Positions 25,155 through 29,467 of a stretch of 64,000 nt of DNA are shown here, piece after piece. This DNA is from an uncultured Opitutia bacterium. Its GTDB lineage: Bacteria; Verrucomicrobiota; Verrucomicrobiia; Opitutales; Opitutaceae. The stretch is from positions 248,001-312,000 of the forward strand of contig CAIPAH010000024.1 of NCBI GenBank assembly GCA_903862955.1, given 5' to 3'. Every line of letters starts with the position of its first letter. Position 1 is the stretch's first letter. The translations under genes and the position numbers were made by a program. Under the pieces are notes generated by a model that ran no database searches, was not told the origin of the DNA, and was given only the letters and a program-made list of their open reading frames with translations.

Positions 25155-26235
25155 GGAAGGTGAACCCGGCCTCGACGCCGCGGCCCTCGTGGTTGCGGAT
25201 GAAAAACGCGCAATTCACCATCTGGGCGAACAGGGTGCAGGTCGCCAGGCCCAGGCCGATGCCCTGCTGCTCCGCGTGACCGCGATCCGACTGGCGGAAG
25301 GTGCCGACCTGGGGAATGAACCCCTCGGCAATGCCCGGGCCGTGATCCACCATGGTCAACTGGTAGCCGGTGGGCGTCATCTGGCCAAACAAGTGGATGG
25401 GTGTGCGCGGCAGGGTAAATTTGCAGGCGTTGTCCACCAGCTGCGCCACCACCCGGTGCATGAAGCCGTCGGGAATATTGAGTGCGGCCGGCGCCACGTT
25501 CAACGAGAGGTCGCGCTCGCGGCCATACCGCTCCGCGGTCCAGGTCGCCGAGGCCAGCACCTGCTCCCTCCACCCGGCAGTACCGGCTGCTTTCCGCGGG
25601 CTGGGATCCCGGACACGGCCGTCCAGTTCCAGCCACAACGTAAATGTGTCCATCATCGCCATGAGCCGGTTGCCACTCGCCTTGAGGTTCGTGGCAAACT
25701 GCCGGGTCTCTTCCGGCGTCAGCCCCCGGCCCTCGCGGGCGGTCTCCGACATGAGATCCGCGTAGCCCAGCAACCCGGTCAGCGGAGTCCGGATTTCGTG
25801 GGGCAGGTAGCGCAGCAGGTAGCGCGTCTGTTCCTCGCGCGTGTGGCGGATCCGCTCGGCGCGTTCCAGACGGACGCGGATGCTGCCAAGTGCGTCCGTC
25901 GGCTCAAACGGCTTGGGAATATAATCGTCCGCGCCCATTGCCAGGCCGGTGCGCACGTCGTCCACCGCGGCCTTGGCGGAAAGAAAGATGAACGGCACGT
26001 CGTCAAACGCCGGCAGGCTGCGCACGCTTCGCAGCAGCTCGTAGCCGTTCTTGTTCGGCATGCGGATGTCGCTGAGGATCAGGGCGGGCTTGGCTCCCGC
26101 CAGCAGCAGGTCCAGCGCCACCTGGCCGTCCGTGGCCGTCAGCACCTCATAGCCCTCGCCCGTGAGCAGCATCTCCAGGGTGGCGATGATGAGCGGATCA
26201 TCCTCCGCGATCAGCAGCAGGGGCTTGGCGTTCAT
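25141..26235 (-). CDS. Receiver-histidine kinase (REC-HisKA-HATPase)
   Basis: The 364-residue cytoplasmic protein has an N-terminal receiver (Asp56 in LILSDIRMPNKNG, Lys in IPKPFEPTDAL) joined to HisKA with His146 in LPHEIRTPLTGLLGYADL and an ATPase domain with QLVDNACKF, MVDHGPGI and GIGLGLATC. A kinase with an N-terminal receiver is usually driven by phosphorylation from another kinase. It overlaps the upstream PAS kinase gene by 4 bp (ATGA) and the downstream hybrid kinase gene by 14 bp, so expression of the three should be tightly linked. Confidence 0.87.
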   Translation of the reverse strand: MNAKPLLLIAEDDPLIIATLEMLLTGEGYEVLTATDGQVALDLLLAGAKPALILSDIRMPNKNGYELLRSVRSLPAFDDVPFIFLSAKAAVDDVRTGLAMGADDYIPKPFEPTDALGSIRVRLERAERIRHTREEQTRYLLRYLPHEIRTPLTGLLGYADLMSETAREGRGLTPEETRQFATNLKASGNRLMAMMDTFTLWLELDGRVRDPSPRKAAGTAGWREQVLASATWTAERYGRERDLSLNVAPAALNIPDGFMHRVVAQLVDNACKFTLPRTPIHLFGQMTPTGYQLTMVDHGPGIAEGFIPQVGTFRQSDRGHAEQQGIGLGLATCTLFAQMVNCAFFIRNHEGRGVEAGFTFHATQ

Positions 26236-28421
26236 GGGTTGGATTTGGCGCCGGCCGCCGGTTGGTGCAGGGGAAAGTAGAGCTGGAAGGTGGTGCCGGT
26301 GCCCTCGGCGCTGTGGAACTCGATGCGCCCGTGGTGGCTGTCCACCGCGCGCTTCACGATCGCCAGCCCGAGACCGGTGCCCGGCGTCACCCCGACGTTG
26401 GAGGCCCGGAAGAACGCGGAGAAGACCTTGGCCTGCTGCTTTTGGGGAATGCCCCGGCCCTTGTCGCTGATGGTGAAGGCCAGCTGGCCTTCGACGATCG
26501 CGACGTGGATGAATACCTTGGTCGCGGAGGGCGAATACTTGATCGCGTTGGAAATCAGGTTTTCGAATGCGGCGCTCAACAGGGACTCGTCCGCGTTGAG
26601 GGTGAGGTCCGGGGCCACGGTGCAGGTCAGCTGCAACCGGGGATCGGCCGTGAGGGTCGTGTCGTTGAACCGGGTGACGATCGAGGTGATCAGCTCCGCC
26701 ACCGGCAGCGGCTTCAGTTCCAGTTCCCCCATGCTGTACTCCAGCCGGTTCAGGAACAGCATCTGGTCCACCAGTTCCTTCAGCGCCTGGATTGATTCCG
26801 CCTGCAGGTCGAAGTACCGGGTCACCTTCTCGTCGTTCGCCTGGTCGATGCGCTTCCGGAGGAGATAATGGGCCCCCTGGATGGCGGTGAGCGGGGTGCG
26901 GAACTCGTGCGAGATCATCGACACAAATTCGCGCTGCATGATGAGCAGTTCGCCCTGATGGCCCGCAAACTCAGCCGCCTCCCGCTCCAGCCGCCTCCGT
27001 TGGGTGACATCGAGATAGATCCCGCCAATCTGCTGCACCTGTCCGGCGTGGTCGAAGATCGGGAATTTCACCACCTCCAGCTCCATGTCACCCTCCGGCC
27101 GGTGAAACACGCCCAGCTGCTTCACGGCCTTGGCCGTGCGCAAGGCCTCGGAGTCCGCTTTCTCAATTTGCTTGGCATCATGCGGGACCACTTCGTCAGC
27201 GCGGCGCCCGATCATGGATTCCTGGCTGATTCCCAGCATGTCGGATCCATGACGATTGAGAAAGATGCACTGCCCATTCGCCTGCTTGATCGTGACGGCG
27301 GCCGGCACATGATCCACGAAACTGCGGAACAGCGTTTCGCTGGCCGCCAGCCGCTCGTGCAACACCACCTCGCTGCTGCGGTCGCGGCAGTTGCACGCGA
27401 TGCCGCCGTCCGGCAGGATCGAGAGGGTCAGGTCCTCGCTAAAGATGACTCCGTCCTTCCGGCGCGCCGGCACCACGCCGTGCCAATGGCCTTGGGATTG
27501 GAGCGCGGGAAAGACCTCCGTCTGGATGCGCGCCACGCTTTCCGGTGAATAGAGGATCTCCCACGACTGGCCCAACAACTCCGACCGGTCCTTGAAGCCG
27601 AACATGACCAGATGTTCCGGGTTCACATAGGTAAAGCAGCCGGCCGCATCGGTCAGGGCAAAGCCCTCGCGGGACTTCTCGATCCCGTGCTGCAGCTTCC
27701 TCGCGCGGTCATCCACCGCCGTGAACGGCGTATAGTCCACCACGCACCCGATGATCAGGGGCGGAACGTGCGACGGCAGCAGCACGGCCTGGTCCTTCAG
27801 GGTATGAATGCGCCCGGCCGGGTCGCGCAGGCGGTAGGTCCGGGTGCAAGAACCCTGCTTTCGCACCAGGGCGGTGGCCTCCTGCGCCTCCTTTTGCGAA
27901 TCGGGCAACAGGCAGGAATACCATGCGCTGGGCGTCGCCCGCAACCGGTCCAGGTCTGATCCACAAAGGGCGAGCAGCTCGTCCGCGATAAACAGGGGGC
28001 TGAGATCATCGGCCTTCAGCGCATAAAACAACGTGCCTGCCAGCTCCAGCGTCCGCAGCACCGAATGGCCCAGGGCGGTGGCGACAAAGCCGGGCAGGCT
28101 CTCCTCACTGGGCGTGAAGGTTACAATCGCCTCATCCGGGCCGGGATTGAAGATTTGGAGCGTGGTGACCCAAGCCCCGGCACCCTCGAACGTCAGTTTC
28201 GCCTGGCCGTCGGGCCGCCCGGTTCCCCCAAAAATCCAGTGTCCCGCCAGCGCCGAGCGCTGCTCCGCCAATTGTCGCGCCACCCGTGCTCCGGGGTTCG
28301 CCGGATTCGCCGGGAGCCAATCCGCGCCGAGCGAGCCCGCCACGACCGTGCATTGAATCGCGGAACCCTGGCGGCAAAACCGCAGGACGCCGGCCCAAGT
28401 CAGACGCGACCCGGCCTTCAC
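26232..28421 (-). CDS. Soluble multi-PAS sensor histidine kinase
   Basis: The 729-residue protein has no membrane segment. The first 120 residues are not recognised. Two to three PAS modules follow: a degenerate one around residues 125-235, then SREGFALTDAAGCFTYVNPE, and VTIKQANGQCIFLNRHGSDM. HisKA carries SMISHEFRTPLTAI, and the ATPase domain has NLISNAIKYS, SDKGRGIP and GTGLGLAIVKRAV. It overlaps the LuxR-type regulator gene by 4 bp and the REC-kinase gene by 4 bp. It is the most likely direct partner of the LuxR-type regulator because of this coupling. Confidence 0.86.
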   Translation of the reverse strand: MKAGSRLTWAGVLRFCRQGSAIQCTVVAGSLGADWLPANPANPGARVARQLAEQRSALAGHWIFGGTGRPDGQAKLTFEGAGAWVTTLQIFNPGPDEAIVTFTPSEESLPGFVATALGHSVLRTLELAGTLFYALKADDLSPLFIADELLALCGSDLDRLRATPSAWYSCLLPDSQKEAQEATALVRKQGSCTRTYRLRDPAGRIHTLKDQAVLLPSHVPPLIIGCVVDYTPFTAVDDRARKLQHGIEKSREGFALTDAAGCFTYVNPEHLVMFGFKDRSELLGQSWEILYSPESVARIQTEVFPALQSQGHWHGVVPARRKDGVIFSEDLTLSILPDGGIACNCRDRSSEVVLHERLAASETLFRSFVDHVPAAVTIKQANGQCIFLNRHGSDMLGISQESMIGRRADEVVPHDAKQIEKADSEALRTAKAVKQLGVFHRPEGDMELEVVKFPIFDHAGQVQQIGGIYLDVTQRRRLEREAAEFAGHQGELLIMQREFVSMISHEFRTPLTAIQGAHYLLRKRIDQANDEKVTRYFDLQAESIQALKELVDQMLFLNRLEYSMGELELKPLPVAELITSIVTRFNDTTLTADPRLQLTCTVAPDLTLNADESLLSAAFENLISNAIKYSPSATKVFIHVAIVEGQLAFTISDKGRGIPQKQQAKVFSAFFRASNVGVTPGTGLGLAIVKRAVDSHHGRIEFHSAEGTGTTFQLYFPLHQPAAGAKSNP

Positions 28422-29176
28422 GACGAAGTCCCCCGGGGTGCGGTGTCGGTCTTTATCGGCTGCGCCTCAATTTCCAGCCACCCTTGGGCGACCGCCAGGA
28501 CGACCAAGTCCTCGTTGGTCCGCGCCGAGAACTTGGCGCGGAGCTTCATCAGCAGCTTGTAGATCATGGAGACGCTGAGATCGAGTTCGGTGGCGATTTC
28601 CTTCACGACCGCGCCCCGGGCCAGACCCCGAAGAATCGCCAGCTCCTGTTTCGCCATGGTCTGCTTCACCCCGCCGCGGACGGCCTCGCGCAGCAAGGCG
28701 CTGGCCTGCGCGCCCAGATAGGTGTGCCCGTCCCGGACGCGGTTGATGGCATCGACCAACTCCGTGAAACGGGCGGATTTCTCCAGGAAGCCATGGGCGC
28801 CGAGGCTGATGACCTCCCGGACCACCTGCATGGTGCAGGACGCGGTGAACACGAGGACATTGACGTCCGGATAATCCTTCCTGACCTCGGCCAGCAACGC
28901 GTAGCCCACGCTTTTTTCCGGCAAGCCGATGTCCAGGAGCAGCAGGTTCGGACGGGTGGAAGCGAAGGCTTCGCGTGCGCTCGCGGCATCGTGGGCAATG
29001 CCCGCGACCTCATAGCCGGGTTGCTGGGAGACAAAGTCCGCCAGCAGCTGGGCGATGGAATGGTGATCATCAACAATCAGGATCCGACACACGTTCGCGG
29101 ATGAATTTGAGTGGGGTTTCGAAGCAGCGGGCACAATGCCCAGACTACCCCCAAAGGGATGAACTTGATATGGCAT
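28418..29176 (-). CDS. NarL/FixJ (LuxR)-type response regulator
   Basis: The regulator has a receiver domain (acidic pair D36-D37, phosphoacceptor Asp82 in LLLLDIGLPEKSVGY, Lys in FLEKSARF) and a C-terminal LuxR-type helix-turn-helix (ARGAVVKEIATELDLSVSMIYKLL). It is the only member of the seven-gene locus with a DNA-binding domain. ATG 29176 gives 252 residues, but a TATAAT box lies only 2 nt upstream of it (29184-29179), so the true start may be GTG 29134 or GTG 29092; the last begins right at the receiver (VCRILIVDDHH). The upstream region is AT-rich and holds palindromic elements that may be its operators. Confidence 0.87.
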   Translation of the reverse strand: MPYQVHPFGGSLGIVPAASKPHSNSSANVCRILIVDDHHSIAQLLADFVSQQPGYEVAGIAHDAASAREAFASTRPNLLLLDIGLPEKSVGYALLAEVRKDYPDVNVLVFTASCTMQVVREVISLGAHGFLEKSARFTELVDAINRVRDGHTYLGAQASALLREAVRGGVKQTMAKQELAILRGLARGAVVKEIATELDLSVSMIYKLLMKLRAKFSARTNEDLVVLAVAQGWLEIEAQPIKTDTAPRGTSS

Positions 29177-29178
29177 AA

Positions 29179-29184
29179 ATTATA
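29179..29184 (-). promoter_or_regulatory. Candidate -10 box of the two-component locus
   Basis: The minus strand reads TATAAT here, a perfect sigma-70-type -10. No good -35 is found 16-18 bp upstream; that region is instead covered by the palindrome at 29190-29209, as expected for an activator-dependent or repressed promoter. Inference from position only. Confidence 0.45.
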
Positions 29185-29189
29185 AATAA

Positions 29190-29209
29190 GTAGGGTATAT
29201 TACCCATTT
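29190..29209. promoter_or_regulatory. 20-bp palindromic element, copy 1
   Basis: GTAGGGTATATTACCCATTT contains the inverted repeat GGGTA-TAT-TACCC. It sits directly upstream of the candidate -10 box of the two-component locus. The half site TACCCAT fits the heptamer pattern known for NarL-type regulators, although the orientation of the two halves is opposite to the classical 7-2-7 site. An identical copy lies at 29336-29355. Confidence 0.6.
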
Positions 29210-29228
29210 GCAATTATCATACTACGAT

Positions 29229-29276
29229 AAGTGATAGTACTAATGAGGCATTTATTGCCTATGCATATTATCACTT
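29229..29276. promoter_or_regulatory. Nested stem-loop in the AT-rich region
   Basis: AAGTGATA (29229-29236) pairs with TATCACTT (29269-29276), and inside this AGGCA (29246-29250) pairs with TGCCT (29256-29260) around the loop TTTAT. It lies between the two copies of the 20-bp palindrome. It may be an RNA leader structure or a protein site. Nothing else coding is seen between 29177 and 29467. Confidence 0.4.
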
Positions 29277-29335
29277 TATATGCTCTTTATAATGTGTTTA
29301 CACGATTCAGAAGGAATCAGGAGAGGAATTGGTGC

Positions 29336-29355
29336 GTAGGGTATATTACCCATTT
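29336..29355. promoter_or_regulatory. 20-bp palindromic element, copy 2
   Basis: An exact copy of GTAGGGTATATTACCCATTT, in the same orientation as copy 1 and 146 bp away from it. No TATAAT-like box is placed next to this copy, so it may be an auxiliary operator or the second end of a small duplicated element. Confidence 0.6.
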
Positions 29356-29467
29356 AATGTACTCCATTCCACCAACTACTCCATGCGAATTTTTACCGCT
29401 GCTGGGGGGTGGATTGCCGGGAATGGTTCCAGCCCGGAAGTGGATGACTCGGTGGGTCCATCCGTGA

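Follow-up and report, generated by a model that had tools for sequence, protein, structure and literature searches.

Paired 16-bp dyads upstream of a LuxR-type regulator gene in an Opitutaceae genome: a predicted operator pair of a family-wide surface and exopolysaccharide regulon

Two identical palindromes stand upstream of a LuxR-type response regulator gene and its sensor kinase genes in this Opitutia genome, which raises the question whether they are operators and, if so, which protein reads them and at which genes. We analyzed a stretch of 64,000 nucleotides (the window) together with the 3.61-Mb genome to which it belongs and related genomes. The 20-mer GTAGGGTATATTACCCATTT occupies positions 29190–29209 and 29336–29355, identical and in the same orientation, with a start-to-start distance of 146 bp. 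An earlier note on this DNA had reported two such elements at exactly this distance and orientation and had placed them in the most AT-rich part of the window. Both statements are correct, as the 200 bp from 29161 have an AT content of 68%, the maximum of the window, compared with 34.6% for the window as a whole. No further copy of the 20-mer with up to three mismatches was found in the whole window (shuffle mean 0.00, n = 100), and there is no other copy in the 3.61-Mb genome. The pattern GGGTA-N3-TACCC occurs exactly twice within the window, and its 13-bp core GGGTATATTACCC, scanned over the genome with up to one mismatch, is absent outside the two copies. Since the core is confined to these two places, the palindromes do not belong to a repeat family, which the earlier note had wanted to see decided by such a scan.

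The earlier note had taken GGGTA-TAT-TACCC as the symmetric core. This core is present in both copies, but comparison with relatives showed that the conserved unit is a 16-mer, TRGGTA-N4-ACCCTA in the minus-strand reading, whose center is offset by half a base from that of GGGTA-TAT-TACCC. Relatives show no enrichment of the 13-mer (46 places with up to one mismatch in 57 genomes, compared with 56 for the reversed control; summed by hand). We refer to the two elements as the predicted proximal operator (29190–29209, minus strand, with the 16-bp core TGGGTAATATACCCTA at 29191–29206) and the predicted distal operator (29336–29355, minus strand, with its 16-bp core at 29337–29352). In the genus alignment a partly conserved block, AGTACTATCAC...GATAATTGCAAATGGGTA (29201–29241, minus strand), runs into the proximal operator, and a conserved block, CAGCAGCGGTAAAAATTCGCATGGAGTAG (29376–29404, minus strand), is located upstream of the distal operator. 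Both blocks include half-site-like words, GGTA or AGTA.

The gene that follows the pair (P0001, 28418–29134, minus strand) encodes a LuxR/NarL-type response regulator. Its receiver domain matches Response_reg (PF00072) with E = 1.4e-21 and 77.2 bits (cut-off 30.2), and the GerE/LuxR helix-turn-helix (PF00196) scores 21.8 bits (E = 1.5e-4), slightly below the cut-off of 23.5. Past the receiver the protein also aligns with the structures of DevR, VraR and NarL. The nearest solved full-length structures are DevR (DosR, PDB-entry 3c3w, E = 5.5e-17) and VraR (5hev, E = 9.8e-15), with which P0001 shares the architecture of a receiver and a LuxR-type output domain, aligned over most of its length; this similarity is at the family level only and concerns the proteins, not their operators. 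Close named relatives come from five Opitutae/Verrucomicrobia metagenome genomes. The start codon is probably the GTG at 29134–29132, 14 codons past the first ATG of the longer frame (29176), because in-frame stops precede that codon in genomes G010 and G011. At this position six genus sequences have GTG or ATG. The end of the regulator gene is overlapped by a PAS/HisKA/HATPase_c sensor kinase gene (26232–28421, minus strand), the first gene of the kinase locus, and more kinases lie behind these two genes.

With a start at 29134, the proximal site is located approximately 55 nt before the gene. A candidate -10 element, TATAAT (29179–29184, minus strand), has its -35 position inside the proximal operator. 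The earlier claim that one copy covers the -35 of a TATAAT promoter thus holds for the position, and a consensus scan found no sigma-70-like promoter at this TATAAT. The element is kept in the window, G002, G010 and G011, while G004 and G006 have a GGAATAAA-type sequence. As an alternative -10 we propose TACTTA (29187–29192, minus strand), whose first two letters are the terminal TA of the operator and which would have the same register as at fecR (see below). A possible -35, TTGCAA (29208–29213, minus strand), lies just upstream of the proximal operator; it is absent from the other genus sequences in the alignment at this gene.

The pair is conserved in the genus. Our genus set comprised 12 genomes, including the genome of the window (G000), and orthologues of P0001 were accepted at E ≤ 1e-40. 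Eight of the 12, the own genome included, have an orthologue; G003, G005, G007 and G009 do not. Two sites in corresponding places were observed in six of these eight sequences, with the window among them, at spacings of 146, 147, 146, 147, 145 and 142 bp. The proximal site is in place in all eight, in degenerate form in G008 and G001. G008 has two weaker sites 156 bp apart, and no distal site was found in G001, where the proximal one is weak. Over five aligned sequences (without G010, which is nearly identical to G011, and without G008 and G001) identity in the 11 specified columns is 95% at the distal and 86% at the proximal site, compared with 52% between the sites and 73% for the best equal-sized window there, and the conservation of these columns is inflated, like that of the 65-site fecR alignment below, as they were picked by motif match. 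The 142-bp spacing in G010 corresponds to 13.5 helical turns and counts against strict phasing. A second paired locus precedes a membrane-protein gene for a protein of about 375 amino acids (P0004), which is present in 3 of the 12 genus genomes and has the pair in all three (G002:C4:26258 and 26407; G004:C28:20234 and 149 bp further; G011:C72:16479 and 16626), with spacings of 149, 149 and 147 bp. Within the loci read, a paired spacing of about 147 bp was seen at these two only, both of them in this genus. As a family-wide rule the paired spacing was rejected: five second sites, one of them from the G011 pair, were found near 70 exact sites of the family, barely above the control mean of 3.0.

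A second target in the own genome is found at G000:C8:79630 (L092:131–146), where TAGGTATTTTACCCTA stands 35 nt before the ATG of a fecR-type gene. The gene order at this locus is leuS, fecR, BBP2_2 porin, Poly_export, AAA_31/CbiA ATPase and then lpxI (gene run L092:182–5019). Judged by the gene names, the run led by fecR would be a polysaccharide-export operon. A fecR orthologue was identified in nine genus genomes (E = 1.2e-60 or better), and in all nine a site with at most two mismatches to TRGGTN5ACCCTA lies directly upstream; what was compared in each genome is the region before fecR. The perfect dyad TAGGGT-N4-ACCCTA is present at fecR in G003 and G008. In the clade nearest the window (G000, G002, G004 and G006) the fecR site has a TAGGTA half, which is also found at the regulator's own promoter and in addition in G198, a genome of genus g57 without P0001.

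Relatives of fecR (E ≤ 1e-25) are present in 105 of the 200 family genomes searched. We read the upstream regions of 90, leaving out the 15 weakest matches. TAGGGT-N4-ACCCTA with at most two mismatches precedes fecR in 65 of the 90 genomes, whereas four permuted dyads gave 0, 0, 1 and 1 in the same regions. The best match has no mismatch in 16 regions, one in 25, two in 24, three in 8, four in 11 and five in 6, and a clear site is thus missing in 25 of the 90 (three to five mismatches). Alternative spacers, again with at most two mismatches, were found 0 (N1), 1 (N2), 13 (N3), 0 (N5) and 1 (N6) times. Among the 65 good sites, a set selected for its match and without the 25 that have more than two mismatches, the arms reach up to 2 bits per column. 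Outside the selected columns a central TA is preferred and GTT follows the dyad, and the farther surroundings are nearly random. A -10-like TANNNT whose first two letters are the final TA of the dyad is seen in 19 of the 65 sites. A TTG within 12 nt upstream of the site is present in 58 of 73 genomes (background 15%), in a set from which the 17 of the 90 sequences with more than three mismatches had been excluded. The dyad is located between a -35-like TTG and a -10-like TA and would therefore be in a repressor's place. Exact sites also persist between leuS and lpxI where fecR is missing (L256 of G009 and L206 of G108) or cut down (L259 of G005).

Throughout the family we counted 103 exact dyads, spread over 67 of the 200 genomes, compared with 25 for the reversed pattern (summed by hand). 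We read 70 of these places, leaving 33 unread, and took the longest frame on each side as the downstream gene; antisense frames, for example a cluster antisense to leuS, were not counted as targets. Secreted proteins of the autotransporter type follow at nine loci in eight genera, several of them with autotransporter repeats, which possibly hold this cluster together in part. The fecR gene follows at eight loci in seven genera, and asparagine-synthase-type amidotransferases at six loci in five genera. The one of these six that was tested (L223, cut off by the end of the locus) scores above the cut-off of TIGR01536 and below that of TIGR03108, the model of the XrtA/PEP-CTERM amidotransferase. 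Four loci in two genera have PEP-tailed secreted proteins downstream, with the exact site 7, 1, 35 and 60 nt before the PEP-CTERM-type genes in L201, L207, L227 and L241. By eye, all four proteins end in a PEP, a hydrophobic and a basic stretch, and two of the four (L227 and L241) are above the TIGR02595 cut-off. A kinase cluster follows at four loci in four genera, of which two (L217 and L250) were checked in Pfam, and signal-peptidase-like proteins follow at three loci in two genera. Response regulators, a flagellin and a pseudopilin are single targets. At several of the 70 exact sites, e.g. L215, an obvious target is wanting.

In the own genome a site with one mismatch is found at G000:C30:213540 (L319), flanked on one side by a signal-peptidase-like gene and on the other by a double-receiver gene. 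By eye, the former resembles the targets in genera g58 and g64. Two-component genes therefore look like a regular type of target. Counts of degenerate patterns within the genus were mixed relative to the reversed controls: 16 vs. 21 for TRGGTN5ACCCTA (12 genomes), 10 vs. 12 for TAGGGTN4ACCCTA with one mismatch (6 genomes) and 17 vs. 9 for TAGGTAN4ACCCTA with one mismatch (4 genomes). Single genus hits away from orthologous loci therefore mean little, and the case for the dyad rests on orthologous position and on the exact counts in the family.

Taken together, the two 20-mers are probably an operator pair for a dimeric DNA-binding protein, with the dyad serving as the operator of a family-wide surface and exopolysaccharide regulon that has the window locus as one of its targets. 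This reading is based on the recurrence of sites before fecR, autotransporter-type, PEP-CTERM, amidotransferase and kinase genes. The earlier note had seen in the pair the operators of the first gene's product, the regulator. Position and conservation place the pair at the promoter of this gene, but ownership by its product does not follow. A dedicated autoregulation, in which P0001 reads the operators mainly for its own feedback with a small regulon, would explain why sites lie upstream of the P0001 gene in all eight genus sequences (degenerate in two), why the pairs of about 147 bp are limited, among the loci read, to this genus at the P0001 promoter and one other gene, and why the clade nearest the window has the same TAGGTA half at fecR; a 16-bp dyad would also suit a NarL-type dimer. 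We nevertheless consider it unlikely. Three genus genomes without an orthologue retain exact sites at leuS-fecR-lpxI, before fecR or its remnant in G003 and G005 and between leuS and lpxI in G009, which makes P0001 improbable as the sole reader (G007, the fourth genome without it, was not read at this locus). G005 and G009 also use the window's TGGGTA form before secreted proteins, the TAGGTA half occurs in G198, and fecR sites are present in most family genomes read, whereas among the 200 genomes searched there is no close orthologue of P0001 outside the genus (best match 42% identical, G186, E = 2.3e-54). The site is most likely read by a regulator other than, or besides, P0001. P0001 may still bind the dyad, since, among the loci read, no other genus showed pairs of about 147 bp, which this one has at P0001 and P0004.

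Two further explanations dispense with an operator. The palindromes could act as RNA, as weak intrinsic terminators or attenuator hairpins: a terminator scan flags both copies, one per strand, the fecR dyad follows directly after leuS, often with GTT next to it, and folding of the own genome's fecR copy is slightly stronger than that of shuffled sequences (z = -2.20). The fold energies of the window copies are ordinary, however (z = -0.86 and -1.37), mispairs in the arms are frequent and lack compensation (68 of 438 cells across 73 sites, e.g. A-C in 14 of 73), and no T run is seen at the distal window copy when it is read along the regulator gene. On the strength of the mispairs and the window fold energies we rejected this explanation as very improbable. 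The identical direct repeats also bound an AT-rich segment and could be read as a repeat or as the scar of a 126-bp insertion, but in orthologues the arrangement is the same and both the copies and the interior have diverged, and single sites occur alone elsewhere. Uniqueness in the genome and the diverged orthologous arrangement leave this origin hardly any probability, and it was rejected as well.

For the operator reading we predict a LuxR/NarL-type regulator as the reader, i.e. P0001, a paralogue or both. Another candidate is the conserved core LuxR-type regulator at G000:C1:47581; for it, matches to P0003 (E ≤ 1e-35, paralogues included) were found in 154 of the 200 genomes. At none of the 20 loci read does this gene have an upstream site with two or fewer mismatches (the upstream region was short at two of them), and it may still be the reader. 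P0003 itself, another LuxR-type regulator encoded by G001, is preceded by an exact site, located 58 nt from its start (G001:C113:4214, L253), and for its homologue in G186 (56%) a three-mismatch site was found at equal distance. The other 15 of 17 homologues scanned, out of 30, have at least four mismatches. Among the homologues of P0001 outside the genus, L047 and L049 have no site with at most two mismatches, and L048, L050 and L051 have two-mismatch hits of ambiguous position. A search for the binder in three non-genus and three genus regulator neighborhoods did not find it.

The dyad is similar to known NarL sites in geometry and different in letters. An engineered NarL site, TACCCCTAAAGGGGTA, consists of inverted heptamers in a 7-2-7 arrangement (PMC4549865). 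Over the 65 fecR sites the 16-bp dyad can likewise be written as TAGGGTN-TA-NACCCTA, with heptamers 2 bp apart. Its arms, TAGGGTN and NACCCTA, differ from TACCCCT and AGGGGTA of NarL: the outer TA is kept and GGG replaces CCC. The likeness to the NarL heptamer proposed in the earlier note therefore applies to the 16-bp, 7-2-7 layout and fails for the letters. As candidate reader we consider a protein of the NarL type with a receiver and a LuxR output, and the dyad would lie over the spacer between -35 and -10.

A functional parallel is the PrsK/PrsR/PrsT system of Proteobacteria, in which, according to the sections of Haft et al. (2006, PMC1569441) considered here, PEP-CTERM genes are preceded by a cis-site with a sigma-54 -24/-12 element and controlled by an NtrC-like regulator. 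In both cases a conserved cis-site stands before many PEP-CTERM genes, with links to exopolysaccharide genes and a two-component system. In place of the -24/-12 element described in these sections we observed the TAGGGT-N4-ACCCTA dyad, and inspection of the region from -40 to +60 of the 65 fecR sites revealed no conserved -24 (GG)/-12 (GC) pair at these sites. Because of this absence at fecR and the different dyad, we do not file the dyad as a member of the PrsR system; at most it works alike. The same sections state that PEP-CTERM was first met by its definers in a verrucomicrobium, that Verrucomicrobium spinosum has sixty-five instances and that the control site is proteobacterial; they contain no cis-site for V. 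spinosum. We tentatively suggest, with somewhat less than even confidence, that the PrsR site has its verrucomicrobial counterpart in this dyad, a single operator for the family, read by a NarL-type regulator, and that the dyad ties exopolysaccharide export, PEP-CTERM and autotransporter proteins and several sensor kinases together, with the genus locus wired in by a pair about 14 turns apart that forms a repression loop. We found no earlier description of the TAGGGT-N4-ACCCTA motif in a literature search that included the motif letters and was made partly by title.

Based on the positions and targets of the sites we propose the following mechanism. The regulon operator would be TAGGGT-N4-ACCCTA, in the form TRGGTA-N4-ACCCTA in the closest relatives of the window. 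The regulon would control exopolysaccharide export through the genes for fecR, the porin, Poly_export and the Wzc-like ATPase, and in addition autotransporter-type and PEP-CTERM surface proteins as well as several two-component genes. The pair in the window would put the LuxR-type regulator and the kinase locus, probably as one transcript, under the same control. A dimer with NarL geometry, bound to the promoter over the spacer between -35 and -10, would block RNA polymerase. With the sites about 14 helical turns apart, two dimers could cooperate, possibly via a short DNA loop. A conserved operator with a recurrent list of targets offers a handle on the switching of slime, surface proteins and possibly biofilm in these bacteria and should make the regulator findable by a single pull-down.

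A few further sites were noted. Three exact sites of genus g20 are flanked by a gene for an MscS-type channel (checked in Pfam in one of three cases) and by a divergent gene named rsmA/ksgA-like by eye (L198 of G093, L231 of G154 and L236 of G118). Sites of the TGGGTA form at G009:C3:681 (L074) and G005:C79:432 (L077), two genomes without P0001, are preceded by a common CTTGGGG-TTGAAA stretch and followed by secreted proteins whose starts resemble each other. The own genome has TAGGTGATAAACCCTAGTTT at G000:C5:703 (L095), approximately 350 nt upstream of a gene that by eye encodes a type II pseudopilin, and in G154 (L200) a pseudopilin gene follows 22 nt after an exact site.
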